A DNA stretch of 64,000 nucleotides from Methyloversatilis sp. (lineage in GTDB: Bacteria > Pseudomonadota > Gammaproteobacteria > Burkholderiales > Rhodocyclaceae): the NCBI GenBank assembly GCA_016791045.1, contig JAEUNO010000031.1, positions 159,470-223,469 of the forward strand. The letters are read 5' to 3'. This document shows positions 24,546 to 40,709 of the stretch, one piece after another (the stretch's first letter is position 1; each line of letters opens with the position of its first letter). The position numbers and the translations under genes are program-made. The notes beneath the pieces were generated by a model. That model did not search any database. It was not told where the DNA came from and worked only from the letters and a program-made list of their open reading frames with translations.

Positions 24546-24574
24546 ACTATAATCGAGAATGATTCTTGTTAAAA
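24546..24574 (-). promoter_or_regulatory. Fur-controlled promoter of the siderophore receptor (divergent from feoA)
   Basis: On the minus strand TTTTAA (24569-24574) and TATAGT (24546-24551) are spaced 17 bp, and the spacer holds AGAATCATTCT (24556-24566), a Fur-box-like palindrome; 9 of 14 positions fit the 7-1-7 consensus. The same 317-nt divergent region leads to feoA on the plus strand, where TATAAT occurs at 24548-24553, so one Fur site may repress both directions. Nothing else was seen in this intergenic region. Confidence 0.65.
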
Positions 24575-30883: not shown

Positions 30884-31528
30884 TCAGGCGCGGCGGCGGG
30901 CGAGGGCGCCAAGCAGGCCGAGGCCGGCCAGCAGCGACAGCCAAGTGGCGGGTTCGGGCACCGGTGCCGCGAGCACGGCCAGCTGGTCGAGGCTCAGGTG
31001 GGCGGCCGGGCTGGCGAAGGCGAACTGCAGGGCGAGCGGGTCGGTGACCGTCCAGCGCCACCAGGCCTCTTCCTCACTGCCACCGAAACCGCCCAGCGTG
31101 GCGCTGAACGACACGACCTTGCTGGCCGCGACGCCATTGAGCGTTGCGATGTCGTTGGCCGCCGTGCCCTGGGTGGCGATGCGCAGCCACACGTCGTAGG
31201 TGCCGGCGGCCGGGGCGGCGAGATCGACGACGAAGTTCGCGGCGCCGCCACTGCTGTACAGGTTGCCGCTGCCGGTCAGGAAGGATCCGGCGGCCGGATG
31301 GGTCTGGCTCAGCGAGCCGCTGCCGGCGATGTCCGGCGTGGCGTCAAGGCTGGCGCTGTCGAACACATTCCATTCGGCATAGACGTCGGCGCTGGCCCAC
31401 GGCGTGGCGGAGGTGGCACCGTTGCCGTCGAAACCGGCGAGCGGGGTATCCCAGACCGCACCGGCGGCGAAAGCGGAAGAAGACAGCACGCACAGCGCGC
31501 CGGTCGAGCACAGACGACGGAAAGACAT
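30884..31528 (-). CDS. PEP-CTERM protein in the haem uptake operon
   Basis: 214 residues: a signal peptide (cleavage after AFA, residue 21), a beta-rich middle with repeated aromatic residues (AEEEAWWRW-like region near 153-160) and a PEP-CTERM tail at 190-214 (VPEPATW, hydrophobic helix, ARRRA). It should be exported, processed by exosortase and held at or released from the cell surface. The position between the Fur-type promoter and hmuS places it in the haem regulon. A role as a surface haem- or haemoprotein-binding factor is plausible, but no known haemophore motif is visible. Confidence 0.82.
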   Translation of the reverse strand: MSFRRLCSTGALCVLSSSAFAAGAVWDTPLAGFDGNGATSATPWASADVYAEWNVFDSASLDATPDIAGSGSLSQTHPAAGSFLTGSGNLYSSGGAANFVVDLAAPAAGTYDVWLRIATQGTAANDIATLNGVAASKVVSFSATLGGFGGSEEEAWWRWTVTDPLALQFAFASPAAHLSLDQLAVLAAPVPEPATWLSLLAGLGLLGALARRRA

Positions 31529-31649: not shown

Positions 31650-31853
31650 TCAGCCGGCGGCGAAATCGATCACGTAGCGGTACTGCTTGCCGCAATCGAT
31701 GATCACTTCCTTCTGGCCGCGCTTGAGCAGGCGAACCTCCACGCTGAGCGACCCGAAACCGTCATGCCGGATCAGCTCGTCGAGCAGGCCGGCAAGGCGG
31801 GATTTCAGGGCGTCCGACGACGAAGCGTTCAGACCTGGCGTGGCGTCGTGCAT
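31650..31853 (-). CDS. Small hypothetical protein, first gene of the hmu operon
   Basis: 67 residues, soluble, with one Cys (CGKQYRYVIDF). It begins 53 nt after the -10 of a Fur-box promoter and is followed by the PEP-CTERM gene 121 nt on. I do not recognise the family; it is not HemP, which is encoded at 40460-40645. No clear Shine-Dalgarno site precedes ATG 31853. Coding potential is supported by its position, GC-rich third positions and absence of a better frame. Confidence 0.6.
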   Translation of the reverse strand: MHDATPGLNASSSDALKSRLAGLLDELIRHDGFGSLSVEVRLLKRGQKEVIIDCGKQYRYVIDFAAG

Positions 31854-31905
31854 GGTGACCGGAATGTCCGGCGCGGCAGGACCGCGCTGTGTTGAACCGG
31901 TTCAA

Positions 31906-31933
31906 ATAATAATGATTCTCAGTTCGGTGTCAA
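31906..31933 (-). promoter_or_regulatory. Promoter with strong Fur box for the hmu operon
   Basis: Minus strand: consensus -35 TTGACA (31928-31933), 16-bp spacer, -10 TATTAT (31906-31911). A Fur box at 31907-31921 (TAATAAT-G-ATTCTCA on the plus strand) fits the 7-1-7 consensus at 12 of 14 positions and covers the -10. Iron-repressed transcription of the 67-aa gene, PEP-CTERM gene and hmuSTUV is expected. Confidence 0.8.
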
Positions 31934-32683: not shown

Positions 32684-35146
32684 TCAGAAGCGCAGCGTCA
32701 GCGACAGCTTCGCGCTGCGGCCCGGCGCCTGCACGCCGACCGCGCCGGCGAAGCCGTCCTGCAGGCAGTACACCTCGTCGGTCAGGTTGTCGATATTGAG
32801 CCGCAGCAAGGCATCAGGGGTGACGCGCCAGCTGGCGAACAGGTCGAACACGCGCGCACCGAACTGGGTGCCGATGCGCCCGACGCCTTCGATGAACAGC
32901 GCGCCCGGGCGCGAGCACACCGTGGGTTGGTCGCCGGCACTGGCGCGCCGTTCGCCGATGTCGCGCATGCGCAGGCCGGCTTCCACCCGTCCGTCGAAGC
33001 CGCGCACACCGGCACTGGCGCTCAGCGTGTCGCCCGGAACGCCGTAGATCGCGTAATCGGTGCCGGCGACCGGGTTCGTGATGCGGCCGTCGATCTGCGA
33101 CCACGCCAGGGTCGCGAAACTGCGCAGCCCGTCGTACGACACTTCCAGTTCGGTGCCGGTGCGCCGTTCCCGACCCGGCTGGGCGACCCGGCCGCCGATG
33201 TTCGAGATCGATTGCAGCAGATGGCGGGTATGGATGTCGTACCAGGTCGCGCGCGCCTGCCAGCGTCCGTCGGCGGCGCTCGCCGGCTGCGGCGACCAGG
33301 CGATCGTCAGTTCGTGGTTGGACGATTCCTGCGGCCGATAGAGACCGCCGCAGATGCCGTTGTCCGGCGCCAGGTCGAGCGCCGCGTTGTACGGCAGGCC
33401 GATGCCTGAAGGGTCGTACAGCGGATTGGCGTTGAGCAGGCCCTGGCCGAGTCCGTCGTCTTCGGTTCTCGCGCAGCGGCTGGCAAAACTGCCGCGCGCG
33501 AAATACTCGTCGACCAGCGGTGGCCGGAAGGCTTCGTTGTAGCGTGCAGTCAGCGACACATCGCTGGCAGGGACGCGCCAGGTCAGCGCAAGTGCCGGCG
33601 ACACCTTGACGAAGCGCAGGTCGGGCGACTGGCCGGCGGCAATCATGTTGGTGCGTGTCTGGCCTTCGGCGCTCACGTGGTAACGGTCGATGCGCGCGCC
33701 CGGCGTCAGCGTGAAGGCGCCGTAGGTCATCGCGTTCTCGACGATCAGCGCGTCGGACACCTTGTCGCCGGGTGGCTGAGCTTCGTTGAAACCGCCAGGA
33801 TAGGTGTTCGCATTGGTGTTGGCGTTCGACGTCACGCGCACGATGTCGCGGCTGTTGCGGATGCCCTGGTAACCCACGGTCAGCACGCCGCGCAGCGCAC
33901 CCAGCGTGTAGCGCAGGTCATTGAACAGCTCACCGGTCCAGATGGCATAGCGCCAGTCGTCGTCGCAGCGGTCGACCCGGAAGGCGGCCGGCAGCAGTCG
34001 CGACGGTGACACGCAGATGCGGCTCTGGCCGATCAGGTGCAGGTCGGCCAGTTCGGTCGTTTCGTAGGCCAGCGTGCCGCGCAGGGCGATCCACGAATCG
34101 GGCGGCAGATAGCGCAGCGACAGATTGGTCGTGGTGTCGTCGATGCTGCGCTGGACGATGCCGAAGCCGCCGGCTCCGGTCGCTGTCGCGTCGTACGGCG
34201 CGCGCTCGGGCCCGCCGGTATAGCGCGTCTGGCTCAGTTCGATCACCAGATCGTCGGTGGCATAGAAGCTCGCCTTGACGAAGCGGCTTTCCGACGACGT
34301 GGCGGTCAGGTCGAGGCGCTCGCCGTCGGGCAGGCGGAAGTCATCGGAATCGCGCCGGGCGACCGACACGATGAGGTCGAGGTGGGCGTTCGGCCGGCCA
34401 TACAGGGTGACCATGCGCAGCCGCTCATGGCTGTTCCAGTTGTAGCCGTACTTCACCTCGCTGCCGAAGGTCTGGCCCGGCTTCAGGAAATCGGACGCCG
34501 ATTTGGTGGTGGCCGACACCGTGCCGCCGAGCGCGCCCGAGCCGGCGGTGACCGACGGGCCGCGCTCCACCTGCAGCGCCTTCAGCAGTTCCGGCTCGAT
34601 GAACACGCCGCTGCCGAAGCGGTACTTCTCGAAGCCCTTGACCGCGCCGTCGACCTTGAACAGCACGTCCTCGTTGTCGGAGAAACCGCGCAGATTGAAT
34701 TTCATGCCGCTGGCGCGCGGTCCGCCATCGACCGCCACACCAGGGATGTCCTTCAGGATGTCGAAAATGGTGCTGGCCTGGCGCCGCTCGATTGCGGCGG
34801 CATTGATGACCGTGACCGGGCGGTCCGGCGGCAGTTCGATCTCGACCGGGCGCTGCAGCTCGCGCTCGTCGGTCACTTCGACTTCGGGCAGCACGGTCGT
34901 GTCGGTGTCGATCGCTTCGCCGGGGTCCTGCGGGCCGGGCAGTGGTTCTGGTGGTGTACGCGCTTGAGCGTCCTGCATCGGCGCGACGCGGTCAGGCGTG
35001 TGCGTGCCTTGTGCCACGGCCGCCGAGGCGGCGAGACAGGCGAATGCGCACAGTCCGGCAGCAGGCCAGCAGAGGGAGCGGCGGAGGGCTGTGGAGGGCT
35101 GGGGTGTCACGGGAAGTCTGCAACGGATGCGGTGCGCCGCGCGCAC
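32684..35146 (-). CDS. TonB-dependent haem/haemoglobin receptor
   Basis: 820 residues from GTG 35146. Signal peptide (hydrophobic core LCAFACLAASAAVAQ, to about residue 46), a TonB-box-like acidic/Pro-rich segment with TTVLPEVEVTDER, plug domain (IFDILKDIPGVAVDGGPRASGMKFNLRGFSDNEDVLFKVDG, VERGPSVTAGSGALGGTV) and a 22-strand-type barrel ending LTLRF. The FRAP-like block reads NEAFRPP and the NPNL-like block NPLYDP, both typical of haem/haemoglobin receptors. It imports haem across the outer membrane and hands it to HmuT. An in-frame GTG at 35110 is an alternative start. It follows the PEP-CTERM gene by 45 nt. Confidence 0.88.
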   Translation of the reverse strand: MRAAHRIRCRLPVTPQPSTALRRSLCWPAAGLCAFACLAASAAVAQGTHTPDRVAPMQDAQARTPPEPLPGPQDPGEAIDTDTTVLPEVEVTDERELQRPVEIELPPDRPVTVINAAAIERRQASTIFDILKDIPGVAVDGGPRASGMKFNLRGFSDNEDVLFKVDGAVKGFEKYRFGSGVFIEPELLKALQVERGPSVTAGSGALGGTVSATTKSASDFLKPGQTFGSEVKYGYNWNSHERLRMVTLYGRPNAHLDLIVSVARRDSDDFRLPDGERLDLTATSSESRFVKASFYATDDLVIELSQTRYTGGPERAPYDATATGAGGFGIVQRSIDDTTTNLSLRYLPPDSWIALRGTLAYETTELADLHLIGQSRICVSPSRLLPAAFRVDRCDDDWRYAIWTGELFNDLRYTLGALRGVLTVGYQGIRNSRDIVRVTSNANTNANTYPGGFNEAQPPGDKVSDALIVENAMTYGAFTLTPGARIDRYHVSAEGQTRTNMIAAGQSPDLRFVKVSPALALTWRVPASDVSLTARYNEAFRPPLVDEYFARGSFASRCARTEDDGLGQGLLNANPLYDPSGIGLPYNAALDLAPDNGICGGLYRPQESSNHELTIAWSPQPASAADGRWQARATWYDIHTRHLLQSISNIGGRVAQPGRERRTGTELEVSYDGLRSFATLAWSQIDGRITNPVAGTDYAIYGVPGDTLSASAGVRGFDGRVEAGLRMRDIGERRASAGDQPTVCSRPGALFIEGVGRIGTQFGARVFDLFASWRVTPDALLRLNIDNLTDEVYCLQDGFAGAVGVQAPGRSAKLSLTLRF

Positions 35147-35191: not shown

Positions 35192-35947
35192 TCAGCCCTT
35201 GTTGATGCGGCGACGTGCGCTCAGCGTGATCAGCCCGAGGCCGCCCAGCATCAGGGCCCAGGTTTCCGGTTCCGGCACGGGGGCTGTGACCAGCTGGTCC
35301 AGCTGGAAGGCTTCGGTCTGCGAGTGGGTGTCGGTGCCGAAGGTGATGCGGAAGCTGTCGACCGGCACGGTGACGCCCAGCGCCGCGAGATTCCACGTGA
35401 AGGTGGCGTGGTTCGGGTTGTTCGGGTCGGACGCCACGACCTGACCGCTGAAGAAGTCGGTGTAGCTGAGGTTTTCCGTCTCGACCAGCGACGCGGTCAG
35501 GAACTGCGTGCCGTTGTTGTAGCTCAGGCGGGGCTCGTAACCGGTTTCGAACAGCCCGTCGACGCCGTTGGCGCCGCGGCTGATGTTGATGTAGCTCTGG
35601 AACACGATGCTGGTCAGGCCGTCTGCAGCGTCGGCAACCGCCATTTCGAAGGTCGAGCCGGCACCGCTGAACTGATACAGGCCGGCCGACGCCGGGTAGG
35701 CGCCACCCGACATCCTGCGGAAGATCGTGTCGCCGGCGCTGCCGTCGACGTTGGCTGCCAGGCCGGCAGTCAGTTGCGCGGCCGTGATGCGGCCCGCCGT
35801 CAGGTTGTTGAAACCGTCGCTGGCGACCGAATCGGCGGGTGAGGTGAAGGATTCGTGCGCGGTGGCGGCGACTGCCTGACCGGCGAAGGCAAAGGACAGC
35901 AAGGCGGCGGTGGTGAGGGCTGCGCTGGGCAGGCGTGACGTGATCAT
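35192..35947 (-). CDS. PEP-CTERM protein upstream of the haem receptor
   Basis: 251 residues: signal peptide MITSRLPSAALTTAALLSFA... ending AVAA, a beta-rich domain with little Cys, and a PEP-CTERM tail at 224-251 (VPEPETW, hydrophobic helix, ARRRINKG). ATG 35947 follows GAGAGG. An in-frame ATG at 36079 has an even better AGGAGA site and would add 44 residues, but it would bury the signal peptide. The receptor gene follows 45 nt on, so the two are probably co-expressed. Sequence similarity to the PEP-CTERM protein at 30884 is confined to the sorting tail. Confidence 0.82.
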   Translation of the reverse strand: MITSRLPSAALTTAALLSFAFAGQAVAATAHESFTSPADSVASDGFNNLTAGRITAAQLTAGLAANVDGSAGDTIFRRMSGGAYPASAGLYQFSGAGSTFEMAVADAADGLTSIVFQSYINISRGANGVDGLFETGYEPRLSYNNGTQFLTASLVETENLSYTDFFSGQVVASDPNNPNHATFTWNLAALGVTVPVDSFRITFGTDTHSQTEAFQLDQLVTAPVPEPETWALMLGGLGLITLSARRRINKG

Positions 35948-36275: not shown

Positions 36276-36890
36276 TCAGACGCGCAGGGCGTAGAACTCG
36301 ACCACCTTCTGTGCTTCGAATGCAAAGGGTGTGGCATCGCCCGGTGGCAGATGGGCGAGGCGCAGGCTCAGCGTCGCGGCATCGAAGGCGATCCATTCGG
36401 CCCGTTCGAGCGGCGGTGTCTGCAGCGCATCGACCACGCTCTGGACGGTGCGACCCTTGTCGGTCAGCGTGATGGTGTCGCCGACACGCAGCCGGATCGA
36501 CGGAATGTTCACCCGCCGTCCGTTGAGCAGCACGTGCTTGTGGCGCACCAGCTGGCGTGCCGCCGGAATCGTCGGCGCCAGACCGCCGCGGAACACGATG
36601 TTGTCGATCCGGCGCTCCAGCAGTTCGACCAGTTTTTCGCCGGTCGGCAGCTTCGAACGTTCGGCTTCTCGGAATACGCTGCGCAGCTGGGTTTCGTTGA
36701 GACCGTAGTTGTAGCGCAGCTTCTGCTTTTCCATCAGCTGGGCGCCGAATTCCGACTTGCGGCGATTCGGGCGTGCGCCATGCTGGCCGGGCGGCGAGGT
36801 GCGGTTTTCGACGTTCTTTCGGGTCAGACCGGGCAGGTCGGTGCCCAGTGCGCGCAGCACGCGCAGGCGGGGGCCGGTGTAGCGGGACAT
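36276..36890 (-). CDS. rpsD: Divergent, cysteine-free ribosomal protein S4 paralogue
   Basis: 204 residues with the full S4 layout: N-terminal S4 domain (SRYTGPRLRVLRALGTDLPGL, PPGQHG, EKQKLRYNYGLNE), the S4 RNA-binding domain (LLERRIDNIVFRGGLAPTIPAARQLVRHKHVLLNGRRVNIPS) and a C-terminal end. The N-terminus resembles the cyanobacterial/plastid C-minus form, with no Cys for zinc, and differs from typical betaproteobacterial S4. It is not in a ribosomal operon but in the iron island, downstream of a Fur-box promoter and an 81-residue gene. It is therefore probably an accessory S4 made under metal limitation. ATG 36890 follows GGAG. Confidence 0.85.
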   Translation of the reverse strand: MSRYTGPRLRVLRALGTDLPGLTRKNVENRTSPPGQHGARPNRRKSEFGAQLMEKQKLRYNYGLNETQLRSVFREAERSKLPTGEKLVELLERRIDNIVFRGGLAPTIPAARQLVRHKHVLLNGRRVNIPSIRLRVGDTITLTDKGRTVQSVVDALQTPPLERAEWIAFDAATLSLRLAHLPPGDATPFAFEAQKVVEFYALRV

Positions 36891-36907
36891 CTTCGGGGTT
36901 CTCCGGA

Positions 36908-37153
36908 TCAGTGGGCGGCGCGCAGGCCTGCATCGCCGACGGCATGCAGGCTCCAGCGGCCGATGAGTGCGTCGCACACTTCACGCATCAGCGGATCGGC
37001 GCGCTCGTCCTCGGCCACGACTTCGAGATGGCGGATCACCATCTGCGCAACTTCCGGGCACGGGCGTTCCGCAAACCGGGTCATGACGAACAGCGTGGCA
37101 GCCGCCAGCATGTTCGGACTGGCGTCGCCAGTGGCACTGTGTTCGGTCGTCAT
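36908..37153 (-). CDS. Small hypothetical protein co-transcribed with the S4 paralogue
   Basis: 81 residues, soluble and helical (AATLFVMTRFAERPCPEVAQMVIRHLEVV; a single Cys). ATG 37153 is preceded by GGAGG about 8 nt upstream. It is the first gene after the Fur-box promoter at 37251-37293 and ends 17 nt before the S4 paralogue start. I do not recognise the family. Confidence 0.65.
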   Translation of the reverse strand: MTTEHSATGDASPNMLAAATLFVMTRFAERPCPEVAQMVIRHLEVVAEDERADPLMREVCDALIGRWSLHAVGDAGLRAAH

Positions 37154-37250
37154 ACCTGCATCCTCCGGCGGTTTGGGCGTGCGGGGCACGGGGTGGCTGG
37201 CGGATGGCTGCGGGAGCAGCAGGCTGGCGCATGTCCTGTTCAGTGTTGAA

Positions 37251-37293
37251 TAGGAATGATTCGCATTCAAACACGCGGGGTGTGGCGTGTCAA
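37251..37293 (-). promoter_or_regulatory. Fur-box promoter for the 81-aa gene and S4 paralogue
   Basis: Minus strand: -35 TTGACA (37288-37293), 17-bp spacer, -10 TTGAAT (37265-37270). A weaker Fur-like site, TAGGAAT-G-ATTCGCA (37251-37265), matches 9 of 14 consensus positions and lies at or just past the -10. The -35 lies in the same CGCTTGACAC block as the hmu and hemP promoters. Confidence 0.6.
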
Positions 37294-37350: not shown

Positions 37351-37380
37351 AAAAAAAACCGCCGGTCAGGGCGGTTTCTT
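37351..37380 (-). terminator. Rho-independent terminator of tonB-exbB-exbD
   Basis: Minus strand: AAACCGCC, seven-nt loop, GGCGGTTT, then T residues, immediately after the exbD stop. The A/T-flanked stem could also work weakly on the plus strand. Confidence 0.85.
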
Positions 37381-37396: not shown

Positions 37397-37816
37397 TTAC
37401 TTCGCGCTGGAAGGATCCGTCACGAAGCCGATGCGGGTCAGCCCGAGCCGTGCGGCCTCGCTCATGACGTGGGCCACCGAGCGGTAGGGTACGTTCTGGT
37501 CGGCACGCAGCTGGATCTCCGCAGTCTTGTCGCGCGCGGCCGCCTCCTGCAGCTTCACCTTCAGCGTTTCCTTGTCGATCTTCTCGCCCGACCAGAACAG
37601 CTGCTCGTCGGCCCCGATCGCGATCTGGATGTTCTCCGGCGGCAGTTCGTTCGCGGAGGTCGATTCCTTGGGCAGGTCGACCTTCACCGCATGGGTCAGC
37701 AGCGGCGCGGTCACCATGAAGATGATCAGCAGCACCAGCATCACGTCGATCAGCGGAATCATGTTGATTTCCGCCATCGGTCCGTCGTCGTCCTGTTCGA
37801 AGCTTGCGAAGGCCAT
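37397..37816 (-). CDS. exbD: ExbD, TonB-system proton channel subunit
   Basis: 139 residues with one N-terminal membrane helix (about 17-38; NMIPLIDVMLVLLIIFM carrying the conserved Asp24 essential for proton coupling) and a periplasmic domain. It works with ExbB and TonB to energise outer-membrane receptors. Last gene of tonB-exbB-exbD; 14 nt after exbB. Confidence 0.92.
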   Translation of the reverse strand: MAFASFEQDDDGPMAEINMIPLIDVMLVLLIIFMVTAPLLTHAVKVDLPKESTSANELPPENIQIAIGADEQLFWSGEKIDKETLKVKLQEAAARDKTAEIQLRADQNVPYRSVAHVMSEAARLGLTRIGFVTDPSSAK

Positions 37817-37830
37817 GTATGTGCTCCCGC

Positions 37831-38601
37831 TCAGTGCGCCGGACGCGCGGCGTCGCGGCCGTGCTCGACCAGTGACAGCACGCGGTCGCCGGTCGCTTTC
37901 GGGTCATTCGTGCCGACGTCCTTGATGCCGGTCGACAGCATGACGAACACGTCGTGCGCGAAGCTGTTCAGCTCGGCCATCACGTTGCGCGTCGAACGTG
38001 CGAAGAAGTTGAACGCCAGCGCCGCCGGGATGGCGGTGGCCAGACCGATGGCGGTCATGATCAGCGCCTCGCCGACCGGGCCTGCCACCTTGTCCAGCGT
38101 GCCCTGACCGGACATGCCGATCGCCAGCAGCGCGTGATAGATGCCCCATACGGTGCCGAGCAGGCCGATGAACGGCGCGCTCGATGCGACCGATGCAAGG
38201 AAGGTCTGGCCGTACTCCATGCGGCTGCGGTCGCGTTCGATCGAACGCTTCAGCGCACGTGTCAGGAATTCGTCTGCACTGCCGGTGGCGATCAGGCCGC
38301 GCGCGCCCGCCTTGCCGTTGCGCAGTGTCTCGACGGCGCTGAACCCTTCATGCACCAGATGCGAAAACGGATCGGTCACGCCGTTGGAACGCATGTCGCG
38401 CGCCACGTCTTCCAGCGACGAGGCGTTCCAGAAGCGATCCATGAACTGGCTGCTGGCGCTGCGCTGGCGCAGCGCAACGATGCCCTTGAGCACGATCAGG
38501 AACCAGGTGCCGATCGACGCGAGCGCCATCAGCACGACGATGGTGATTGCGACAGCATCCGCGTTCGACAGGAAGTGCGCAAAACCCAGTGATTCATTCA
38601 T
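37831..38601 (-). CDS. exbB: ExbB, TonB-system inner-membrane protein
   Basis: 256 residues of the MotA/TolQ/ExbB family, with three membrane helices; the segment SSAPFIGLLGTVWGIYHAL and the final AIGLATAIPAALAFNFFAR are diagnostic. ATG 38601 follows GGAGAG; the frame extends 14 residues further but without a site. It forms the proton-driven motor with ExbD. Confidence 0.92.
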   Translation of the reverse strand: MNESLGFAHFLSNADAVAITIVVLMALASIGTWFLIVLKGIVALRQRSASSQFMDRFWNASSLEDVARDMRSNGVTDPFSHLVHEGFSAVETLRNGKAGARGLIATGSADEFLTRALKRSIERDRSRMEYGQTFLASVASSAPFIGLLGTVWGIYHALLAIGMSGQGTLDKVAGPVGEALIMTAIGLATAIPAALAFNFFARSTRNVMAELNSFAHDVFVMLSTGIKDVGTNDPKATGDRVLSLVEHGRDAARPAH

Positions 38602-38688
38602 CAAGACTCTCCATGTGAAGCCAGATTCAAAGTCATAGTGCAAAAAAGGATCGCCGCGCAGTGTACGCCAGCGGTCGCTTCGGTCAAA

Positions 38689-39501
38689 TCAGTGCGGCAG
38701 CTTGAAGCTGAGCGGGACCACGACGGATTCGGCAATCGCTTCGGTACCGCGTCGTGCCGGCACGAACTTCCATCTCTTCACCGCGTCCAGCGCGGCTTCG
38801 TCGAGTCGGGGGAAACCGCTCGACTTTTCGATCTCGACCTTCGACGGCGTGCCGCTTGCCTCGACCATCACCCGCAGCATCACCCGTCCTTCTTCGCCGG
38901 CACGGCGCGACAGCATCGGGTAGGTCGGTTTCGGATTCGACAGGTAGGCGGCGTCGAAGCGCGGCGGTTCAACCGGCGGCGGCGCAGCCACCGGCGCGGC
39001 CGTGACTGCGGCGGGCGCCGGTGCCGCTGTGGGTACGGCGTCGATCGCCACCGGTTCCGGTGGCGCGGGTTCCTGCAGCGGGACGCTTTCCGCGCTGGGC
39101 GCATCGGCCGCAGCGGTGAGCTTCGGCAGCGCCACTTCCTTGCGTCGGGGCACCGGTTTGGTGACCGGCTTCGGCGGCTGCGGCTCCACCCTGGGCTGTT
39201 CGCGCACCGGCTCGATCTCTGCCATCGGCAGCGGTTCGGGCGCAATCAATGTGGCCAGCATGATGCTGGCGGGTGCGCTCGGCAGCGGCAGCTGGACATG
39301 CATGAGCCAGAACAGCGCCAGGCCATGCAGCAGCAGTACCGTACCGAGTGAAAAGATGCGCGCCGGCGCACCTGCATCAGGCAGACCGGGCCACCGGCCC
39401 GGTGGCGTATCCGGAGCAGCCGGAAGGCGGAAGGCGGGCGGCAGGGGCGGCGGCAGGGTTCCTGCGCCGCCTGCGAGCGCTGCGCTGCTCATCGCGACCA
39501 T
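38689..39501 (-). CDS. tonB: TonB energy-transducing protein
   Basis: 270 residues: one membrane anchor (about 50-70), a long Pro/Glu/Lys-rich periplasmic spacer (EPVREQPRVEPQPPKPVTKP) and a C-terminal TonB domain (YPMLSRRAGEEGRVMLRVMVEASG ... AALDAVKRWKFVPAR). It spans the periplasm to contact receptors such as those at 22227 and 32684. The stretch before the anchor is unusually long (about 48 residues). An ATG three codons later (39492) is an equally possible start. Confidence 0.9.
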   Translation of the reverse strand: MVAMSSAALAGGAGTLPPPLPPAFRLPAAPDTPPGRWPGLPDAGAPARIFSLGTVLLLHGLALFWLMHVQLPLPSAPASIMLATLIAPEPLPMAEIEPVREQPRVEPQPPKPVTKPVPRRKEVALPKLTAAADAPSAESVPLQEPAPPEPVAIDAVPTAAPAPAAVTAAPVAAPPPVEPPRFDAAYLSNPKPTYPMLSRRAGEEGRVMLRVMVEASGTPSKVEIEKSSGFPRLDEAALDAVKRWKFVPARRGTEAIAESVVVPLSFKLPH

Positions 39502-39668: not shown

Positions 39669-40148
39669 TCAGCCGCCGATCTCTCCCATCGCGGCCTGGG
39701 TGTAATTCTGCAGTCCCATCTTGTCGATCAGGTCAATCTGGGTTTCCAGCCAGTCGATATGTTCTTCCGTATCGGCCAGGATCGAACGGAACAGGTCGCG
39801 TGACACGTAGTCGCCGGCCGATTCGCAACAGGCCACCGCTTCCTTCAATGTCGTATGCGAAATGTGCTCGATCTTCAGATCGCAGCCCAGCATTTCAGGC
39901 ACATTCTCGCCGATCAGCAGCTTGTGCAGATCCTGCAGGTTGGGCAGACCTTCGAGCATCAGGATGCGTTCGATCAACGCATCGGCATGCTTCATTTCTT
40001 CGATCGACTCGTGGTGTTCATGGTCGCCGAGCTGCTTCAGGCCCCAGCTCTTGTACATTTTCGCGTGCAGGAAATACTGGTTGATCGCAGTCAGTTCATT
40101 CACCAGCTGCTTGTTCAGATACTGCAGAACCTTCTTGTCGCCCTTCAT
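39669..40148 (-). CDS. bfr: Bacterioferritin
   Basis: 159 residues: a four-helix ferritin with ferroxidase ligands ([38 protein letters not shown]) and the haem-binding Met (Met52 by usual numbering; MKHAD region). It stores iron as a haem-bridged 24-mer in the cytoplasm. It lies 88 nt after bfd and may have its own promoter. Confidence 0.93.
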
Positions 40149-40236: not shown

Positions 40237-40452
40237 TCAGGCGGCGCAGCCGGAGGCCAGCGGCGCTTGTGCGACGAGTGCCCGCAGATCAGCCCGGGCG
40301 GCGTCGATCACTTCCTTCGCAGCGCGCACACACTTGCCGCAATCCCTGCAGCAGCCGAGCTGTCCGGCCACGTCACGCACGTTGCGGCAACCGGTGCTGA
40401 CCGCAGCCTTGATATCCCGATCGGTGACCGGTTCGCACAGACAGATGTACAT
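40237..40452 (-). CDS. bfd: Bacterioferritin-associated ferredoxin
   Basis: 71 residues with the [2Fe-2S] pattern C-x-C near the start (YICLCEP) and C-C-R-D-C-G-K-C. Bfd reduces and mobilises iron from Bfr. Seven nt after hemP, so co-transcribed from the Fur-box promoter upstream of hemP. Confidence 0.92.
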   Translation of the reverse strand: MYICLCEPVTDRDIKAAVSTGCRNVRDVAGQLGCCRDCGKCVRAAKEVIDAARADLRALVAQAPLASGCAA

Positions 40453-40459
40453 GGCGACT

Positions 40460-40645
40460 CTATTTGGTGAGTATCAATTTGCCGTTGCGCGTGAGACGCA
40501 ACGAATAAAGCTCGCCACCGTGATTGATGGCGACCTGTTTGCGGCCGCCCAGCAACTGCGCCGAATCAAGCGTCGGCGACGGGCTGGGTGACGCGGAGGG
40601 AGCGTTGGCGGGTGTCTGCGGCAGCGGAGATGCAGGCGTATTCAT
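40460..40645 (-). CDS. hemP: Haemin uptake protein HemP
   Basis: 61 residues: a Pro/Ser/Ala-rich N-terminus and the conserved HemP C-terminus (YSLRLTRNGKLILTK). HemP is a small Fur-regulated haem-uptake factor reported in some betaproteobacteria to activate haem receptor expression. It heads a hemP-bfd(-bfr-tonB-exbB-exbD) run from the Fur-box promoter at 40661-40709. Confidence 0.9.
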   Translation of the reverse strand: MNTPASPLPQTPANAPSASPSPSPTLDSAQLLGGRKQVAINHGGELYSLRLTRNGKLILTK

Positions 40646-40660
40646 GTGCCAACAAACAAA

Positions 40661-40709
40661 TAATAATGAGAATGGTTCGTATTAATACAGAACGCTGCGC
40701 CGGTGTCAA
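40661..40709 (-). promoter_or_regulatory. Fur-box promoter of hemP
   Basis: Minus strand: consensus -35 TTGACA (40704-40709), 16-bp spacer, -10 TATTAA (40682-40687). A Fur-like site starting TAATAAT-G at 40661 (to about 40675) lies just downstream of the -10. The block TCATTATTATTTG on the minus strand is shared with the hmu promoter. Confidence 0.7.

Follow-up and report, generated by a model that had tools for sequence, protein, structure and literature searches.

In a 64,000-nucleotide stretch of DNA from a Methyloversatilis sp. genome (hereafter, the window), we found a gene for an accessory, cysteine-free ribosomal protein S4 (uS4) that lies behind a Fur-type operator and next to genes for haem uptake. 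With a probability of roughly 60%, we read this locus as an iron-sparing ribosome switch, in which a Fur-controlled cysteine-free S4 would replace a main S4 that carries an Fe-S cluster. The first-pass annotation of this DNA had already proposed an iron-linked S4 and ribosome remodelling. This proposal is supported by the sequence comparisons reported here and is the most likely reading, while the reason for it, namely the four-cysteine (four-Cys) main S4 of the relatives, was newly found.

The S4 gene is located on the minus strand at positions 36276-36890 and encodes 204 amino acids; a GTG-started ORF of 233 amino acids was rejected as overextended. The product is a full-length uS4, with the N-terminal Ribosomal_S4 domain (Pfam, 73.2 bits against a cut-off of 23), the S4 domain (Pfam, 60.1 bits against 22.8) and the TIGR01017 model (204.9 bits against 177.2) all above the curated cut-offs. 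None of its 204 residues is a cysteine, meaning that the metal ligands are absent, as in the C- partner of a C+/C- ribosomal protein pair. The earlier description of a complete cysteine-free S4 was thus confirmed for both domains. On the other hand, its label as cyanobacterial or plastid-like was too narrow, since the best PDB matches were other bacterial uS4s and a chloroplast S4 ranked 17th. The dN/dS values between the window copy and those of eight congeners ranged from 0.04 to 0.13, indicating purifying selection. A plasmid search returned 65 records, all below 60% identity, the best being 43.8% (the best 20 of the 65 were inspected).

Directly upstream of S4, and separated from its start by 17 bp, is an ORF for an 81-residue protein (positions 36908-37153, minus strand) that we named U81. 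Both genes follow a promoter recognized by eye on the minus strand, composed of a -35 element TTGACA (37288-37293) and a -10 element TTGAAT (37265-37270) with a spacing of 17 bp; a consensus promoter scan listed nothing at this position. The -10 element is covered by a Fur-type operator made of two overlapping 19-mers (37246-37270, minus strand), which scored 15.4 and 13.1 bits with a matrix built from Fur-like sites outside S4 regions, taken from other loci. Over the whole 64-kb window, this matrix gave eight matches of at least 11 bits, at four places, where the expectation by chance was 0.30 (20 first-order Markov sequences). The same arrangement of promoter and overlapping Fur-type box was kept in 10 congeners, which is what membership of a Fur regulon looks like at the sequence level. 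The Fur-like promoter noted in the first-pass annotation therefore holds, and Fur control of the U81-S4 unit is predicted. The highest-scoring Fur-type match in the window was found elsewhere (31902-31926, 22.1 bits), just upstream of a gene for a 67-residue protein without a Pfam family (31650-31853, minus strand), relatives of which were present at all ten congener loci as well as at L076 and L087. Another strong site was located at 24549-24573 (20.2 and 15.9 bits).

The TonB and haem neighbourhood reported earlier was also recovered, with models above their cut-offs for HemP, Bfd, ferritin and TonB and below them for ExbB, ExbD and the haem receptor. On the minus strand, upstream of the U81-S4 promoter, we found genes for the haemin uptake protein HemP (40460-40645, above the Pfam cut-off), a Bfd-like [2Fe-2S] protein (40237-40452, above the Pfam cut-off), a ferritin-like protein that is a bacterioferritin by its position (39669-40148, ferritin above the Pfam cut-off) and a TonB-family protein (38689-39501, with a TonB C-terminus above the NCBIfam cut-off). 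They are followed by genes for proteins of the ExbB/TolQ (37831-38643) and ExbD/TolR (37397-37816) types, for which these models were the best matches and the congener loci gave the same order. One of the four places matched by the Fur matrix precedes hemP (40662-40686). A hairpin with a T-run after exbD (37351-37376, minus strand), seen by eye and absent from the scan listing, is the likely terminator separating the two units. Downstream of S4 are genes for a PEP-CTERM protein (35192-35947, minus strand; Pfam/NCBIfam) and a TonB-dependent receptor (32684-35146, minus strand), which was above the Pfam cut-off and of the haem type by its best model. A second protein with a PEP-type tail, recognized by eye, is encoded at 30884-31528 (minus strand), so that PEP-CTERM proteins flank the haem-type receptor on both sides; both have relatives in the congener loci.

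The order HemP-Bfd-ferritin-TonB-ExbB-ExbD-U81-S4-PEP-CTERM-receptor-haem transport was kept in ten congeners, some loci being cut at an edge and one (L047) having two diverged genes downstream of S4. The last genes of this order are presumably for haem transport, judging from their sequences. Outside the genus, the neighbours that we could recognize were HemP, TonB-ExbB-ExbD, haem transport or ChaN-like genes in varying arrangements, and at many loci none of the neighbour probes matched within the DNA examined. What we take to be a ChaN-like gene precedes the accessory S4 at L051, L118, L119 and L127.

The first-pass annotation had treated the gene as a paralogue of a main rpsD. A main S4 was indeed present in all 10 other accessory-bearing congeners. 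The assembly of the window itself, given as 91.94% complete, yielded neither a second S4 nor RNA_pol_L (rpoA). The alpha operon of this genome therefore probably falls in an assembly gap, and the missing main S4 is probably not a true absence. Within Methyloversatilis, the accessory S4 occurred at 89% identity or more in 11 of 13 genomes, including that of the window. The main S4 had four N-terminal cysteines in all 10 of the other bearers and, in the one congener where the context was read, was flanked by S13, S11 and rpoA. The two remaining genomes were G007, with only the main S4, and G009, in which neither S4 nor S11 was found.

To place these copies in a wider context, we used the best 80 of 574 candidate loci and searched the genomes of 41 of them for S4 on contigs of at least 3 kb. 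Two S4 copies were found in 29 genomes and one in 12; the 29 two-S4 genomes and the 10 congeners overlap in one genome. In all 29 two-S4 genomes, the main S4 carried the motif Cys9-x2-Cys12-x13-Cys26-x4-Cys31, with exactly the spacing of Thermus S4, whereas the accessory copies of 28 of the 29 had no cysteine in residues 1-45. The two proteins shared 35-51% identity (mean of 40%). The S4 of Thermus thermophilus binds a [4Fe-4S] cluster, as stated in a passage of PMC11791143 (2024, citing Polikanov 2014). By homology, the main S4s of the two-S4 genomes carry a putative cluster of the same kind. Since the main S4 of the relatives has this motif, the most plausible reading of the cysteine-free copy is that of a replacement which spares iron rather than zinc and would be derepressed through Fur.

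We also analyzed whether the accessory copy goes together with the four-Cys type of main S4. In a first genome survey, it accompanied none of six motif-less mains and 13 of 30 of the four-Cys type; the other 17 of these 30 genomes, including G007, had no accessory copy. In a wider survey, the accessory type was detected at 318 bits or more in 14 of 299 genomes, including that of the window. A main S4 was among the matches listed for under half of these 299 genomes, and of the 136 mains so listed, an accessory copy accompanied 0 of 115 motif-less and 3 of 21 four-Cys ones, the type being deduced from where the alignment started. All 15 mains fetched from the 115 were confirmed as motif-less by their sequences. 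However, four four-Cys S4s of gamma-proteobacteria (L161, L164, L167 and L170) aligned from residue 1 or 2, and thus the alignment start is not a safe proxy outside the order of the window. With these exceptions, and with more than half of the genomes lacking a listed main, the contrast is supportive but not firm. In a phylogenetic tree, accessory-type and main S4s separated with no misplaced leaf, the support of this split being low (0.105), and four four-Cys mains (L175, L188, L189 and L208) fell outside the main four-Cys clade.

The unit composed of a Fur site, U81 and S4 recurs in Rhodocyclales, Methylophilaceae and Nitrosomonas. A Fur-type site was counted from 13 bits upwards, a cut above the 95% point (12.0) and below the 99% point (15.9) of 345 background windows. 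Such a site was present within 600 bp at 14 of 29 two-S4 loci and at none of nine loci where the accessory type was the sole S4 found. Within 2500 bp, the corresponding counts were 18 of 29 and one of nine (L136, 13.8 bits), and 11 two-S4 loci had no such site in this range (L076, L081, L085, L113, L114, L119, L123, L127, L131, L141 and L142). At the stricter cut of 15.9 bits, 11 of the 29 two-S4 loci retained a site. U81 was found within 700 bp at 20 of the 29 two-S4 loci, being missing in this range from nine, and at none of the nine sole-S4 loci. Over all 80 loci, which are not independent samples and a few of which (L079 and L125, for example) have little upstream DNA, U81 and a Fur site (13 bits, 800 bp) occurred together at 33, one without the other at 7 and 6, and neither at 34. 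Owing to this lack of independence, Fisher values calculated in the analysis are not to be read literally.

As the earlier annotation had stated for its 81-residue protein, U81 belongs to no named family: nothing in NCBIfam or Pfam reached the cut-off, and a PHROGs search gave no convincing family. The best Pfam E-values were weak (0.14 for the window protein, 0.027 for a homologue), as was the best PHROGs E-value (0.018, for a homologue). AlphaFold2, run with 25 sequences, predicted a helical protein (mean pLDDT of 76.6, pTM of 0.61), and a Foldseek search of this model against the PDB gave no match at an E-value of 0.001 or better. Three positions (A18, L43 and W67) were invariant in the alignment of 25 sequences. 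The protein is under purifying selection, with dN/dS of 0.00-0.23 against eight congeners, and its identity fell to 9-25% outside the genus. Of the 80 loci, 40 had a U81-like ORF within the 700 bp preceding S4. Eight loci (L084, L085, L096, L112, L114, L115, L126 and L146) have such an ORF immediately after the accessory S4, and several of them have the upstream ORF as well, suggesting that U81 was duplicated or moved. Because U81 goes with the Fur-linked S4s and is absent from the nine sole-S4 loci, we suggest that it acts in exchanging or assembling the alternative S4, probably as a factor produced alongside it.

The genomes with a single S4 bear on whether the accessory type can work in ribosomes. 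Three of the 12 (G424, G433 and G445) also lacked S11 and are probably explained by assembly gaps, which leaves nine genomes in which the accessory type was the only S4 found. In these nine, rpoA comes next after S11, and the interval between rpsK and rpoA contains no rpsD. They comprise three Methylobacillus isolates and six MAGs, from Myxococcota/Deltaproteobacteria (L108, L132 and L150), Oligoflexales (L136), an uncultured proteobacterium (L145) and Zetaproteobacteria (L149); in the MAGs, for which contigs of at least 3 kb were searched, a second S4 could have been missed. With no rpsD in the alpha operon and no other S4 found, the accessory type probably works in ribosomes, and it most likely carries the ribosomal role in these nine genomes. 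In the three Methylobacillus alpha operons, Alpha_RBS matched at 31.0-32.6 bits, below the Rfam gathering score of 38, which fits possible control of the operon by the accessory S4 type. The alpha operons of five other sole-S4 genomes were also searched and gave no Alpha_RBS match. In Methylobacillus (L091, L093 and L097; L210-L212), the only S4 found is upstream of TonB-ExbB-ExbD genes, with no Fur site within 600 bp and no U81. A single S4 match with a cysteine-free N-terminus, scoring high against the accessory family (253-258 bits), was also observed in one gamma-proteobacterial genus (L151-L153, from G160, G316 and G249), which is perhaps another replacement.

We propose that the switch would operate as follows. 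When iron is sufficient, Fur would repress the U81-S4 unit, and ribosomes would be built with the main S4, whose four-Cys motif would hold a [4Fe-4S] cluster. When iron is short, Fur would leave the operator that covers the -10 element, and expression of the cysteine-free S4, along with that of the haem-uptake genes, would follow. This S4 would take the place of the main S4 in new 30S subunits, with U81 as a probable assembly or exchange factor. Ribosome assembly would then no longer need iron or Fe-S assembly. The accessory S4 may in addition repress the alpha operon, main S4 included, through the S4-binding leader. The sequences directly show the two S4 types of the relatives with their contrasting motifs, the Fur-type box, the recurrence of the unit and the genomes where no other S4 type was found, whereas we infer Fur binding, induction, the cluster in the main S4s, exchange in ribosomes, control of the alpha operon and the role of U81. 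The odds seem about even that the proposal extends further. In that case, a Fur-controlled U81-S4 unit carried by several orders would rebuild the small subunit without an Fe-S cluster under iron scarcity, U81 would be a factor dedicated to this exchange or assembly, and feedback by S4 on the alpha operon would turn off the copy that requires iron. In Methylobacillus and some Myxococcota, the iron-free S4 would then have supplanted the Fe-S form altogether.

The same replacement could be made for zinc, if zinc were the metal bound by the four-Cys main S4 and spared by the cysteine-free copy. Alternative cysteine-free ribosomal proteins are usually linked to zinc, and zinc was modelled at the S4 motif in older Thermus 30S structures. 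Yet the operator is of the Fur type, like the one before hemP, and a [4Fe-4S] cluster is stated for the Thermus protein. Moreover, a Zur-type palindrome (gamma-type consensus) had no match in the window at three or fewer mismatches and agreed at 8-10 of 15 positions at best at 12 promoters, short of what a Zur regulon would show. We therefore consider the zinc explanation improbable. The identical anatomy would be expected if what mattered were the lability of the cluster towards oxygen or peroxide, with lost Fur repression as a proxy for such stress; Fe-S clusters are labile to oxidation, and the second S4 would then protect ribosome assembly rather than save iron. This is likewise improbable, as the operator belongs to the Fur type and the recognized neighbours, searched with probes for iron and haem genes, are iron and haem uptake genes.

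An S4-domain regulator of the haem genes had been the other suggestion of the first-pass annotation, and it is not favoured here. S4 is a known translational repressor, and Alpha_RBS matches were obtained in the main alpha operons of these bacteria, so a paralogue that stays out of ribosomes and mainly binds mRNA, either the alpha-operon leader or mRNA of haem genes, is conceivable. But the retention of the full N-terminal and S4 domains, the purifying selection on the protein and the nine genomes where no other type of S4 was found make it quite unlikely. Finally, an old S4 might have come to rest beside iron genes by chance; the distribution of the copy is patchy even where the main S4 is of the four-Cys type, and the 11 two-S4 loci without a clear Fur site within 2500 bp would be in line with this. 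Conservation of the Fur site-U81-S4 unit in many genera where the further neighbours differ, and the low dN/dS of S4 within the genus, argue against it, and we regard it as very unlikely.

Among the closest parallels to the iron-sparing reading are the Zur-controlled zinc-free ribosomal paralogues, the C+/C- pairs known for L31, L33, L36, S14 and S18, for example. Under iron shortage, Fur and RyhB likewise direct sparing responses in which iron-using proteins are set aside. Alternative ribosomal proteins linked to zinc and Zur are known (compare PMC9825181 and PMC8866557). As in the C+/C- pairs, a metal-responsive repressor site precedes the gene for a paralogue that lacks the ligands of its metal-binding ribosomal counterpart, and the ligand-bearing copy of the relatives is in the main ribosomal operon. 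Unlike them, the protein here is S4, the site is Fur-type, the metal centre is [4Fe-4S] by homology and a conserved small protein, U81, is encoded alongside. The main S4s of the 29 two-S4 genomes share the four cysteines and their spacing with T. thermophilus S4, whereas the window protein is a cysteine-free counterpart and the cluster in these bacteria is putative. An iron-using protein would be set aside in iron shortage as in the Fur/RyhB responses, but the item spared would be the ribosome itself, by replacement of a protein.

The surroundings resemble the HemP-bearing haem-uptake clusters of beta-proteobacteria in having HemP, proteins of the TonB/ExbB/ExbD type and a haem-type receptor as neighbours, and differ from them in containing an S4 gene and U81. 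The ChuPRSTUV cluster is presumably akin to these through HemP. It is the beta-proteobacterial haem-uptake cluster of Chromobacterium violaceum (PMC9131926). The words "ribosomal" and "rps" do not occur in the sections covered of the Nitrosomonas europaea fur paper (PMC3050691), nor does "iron" in those of the review PMC12186496. A literature search, mostly of open-access papers, gave no Fur-linked S4 or iron-sparing ribosomal paralogue among the matches listed, which is weak evidence of absence. New here is the Fur-linked cysteine-free S4 opposite a four-Cys main S4; the alternative ribosomal proteins of the zinc/Zur type were already known.

Ribosomes are among the most abundant machines of the cell, and an Fe-S cluster in S4 would thus cost four iron atoms per ribosome. 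It would also tie protein synthesis to Fe-S assembly. If the proposed switch is real, the composition of ribosomes would depend on iron in addition to zinc, and the U81-S4 unit would be the iron counterpart of the zinc C+/C- switch. Isolates such as Methyloversatilis universalis, Methylotenera and Nitrosomonas europaea would then offer a way to test why four-Cys and cysteine-free forms of S4 exist, and the puzzling cluster of Thermus S4 could be put to a test of its physiological role.
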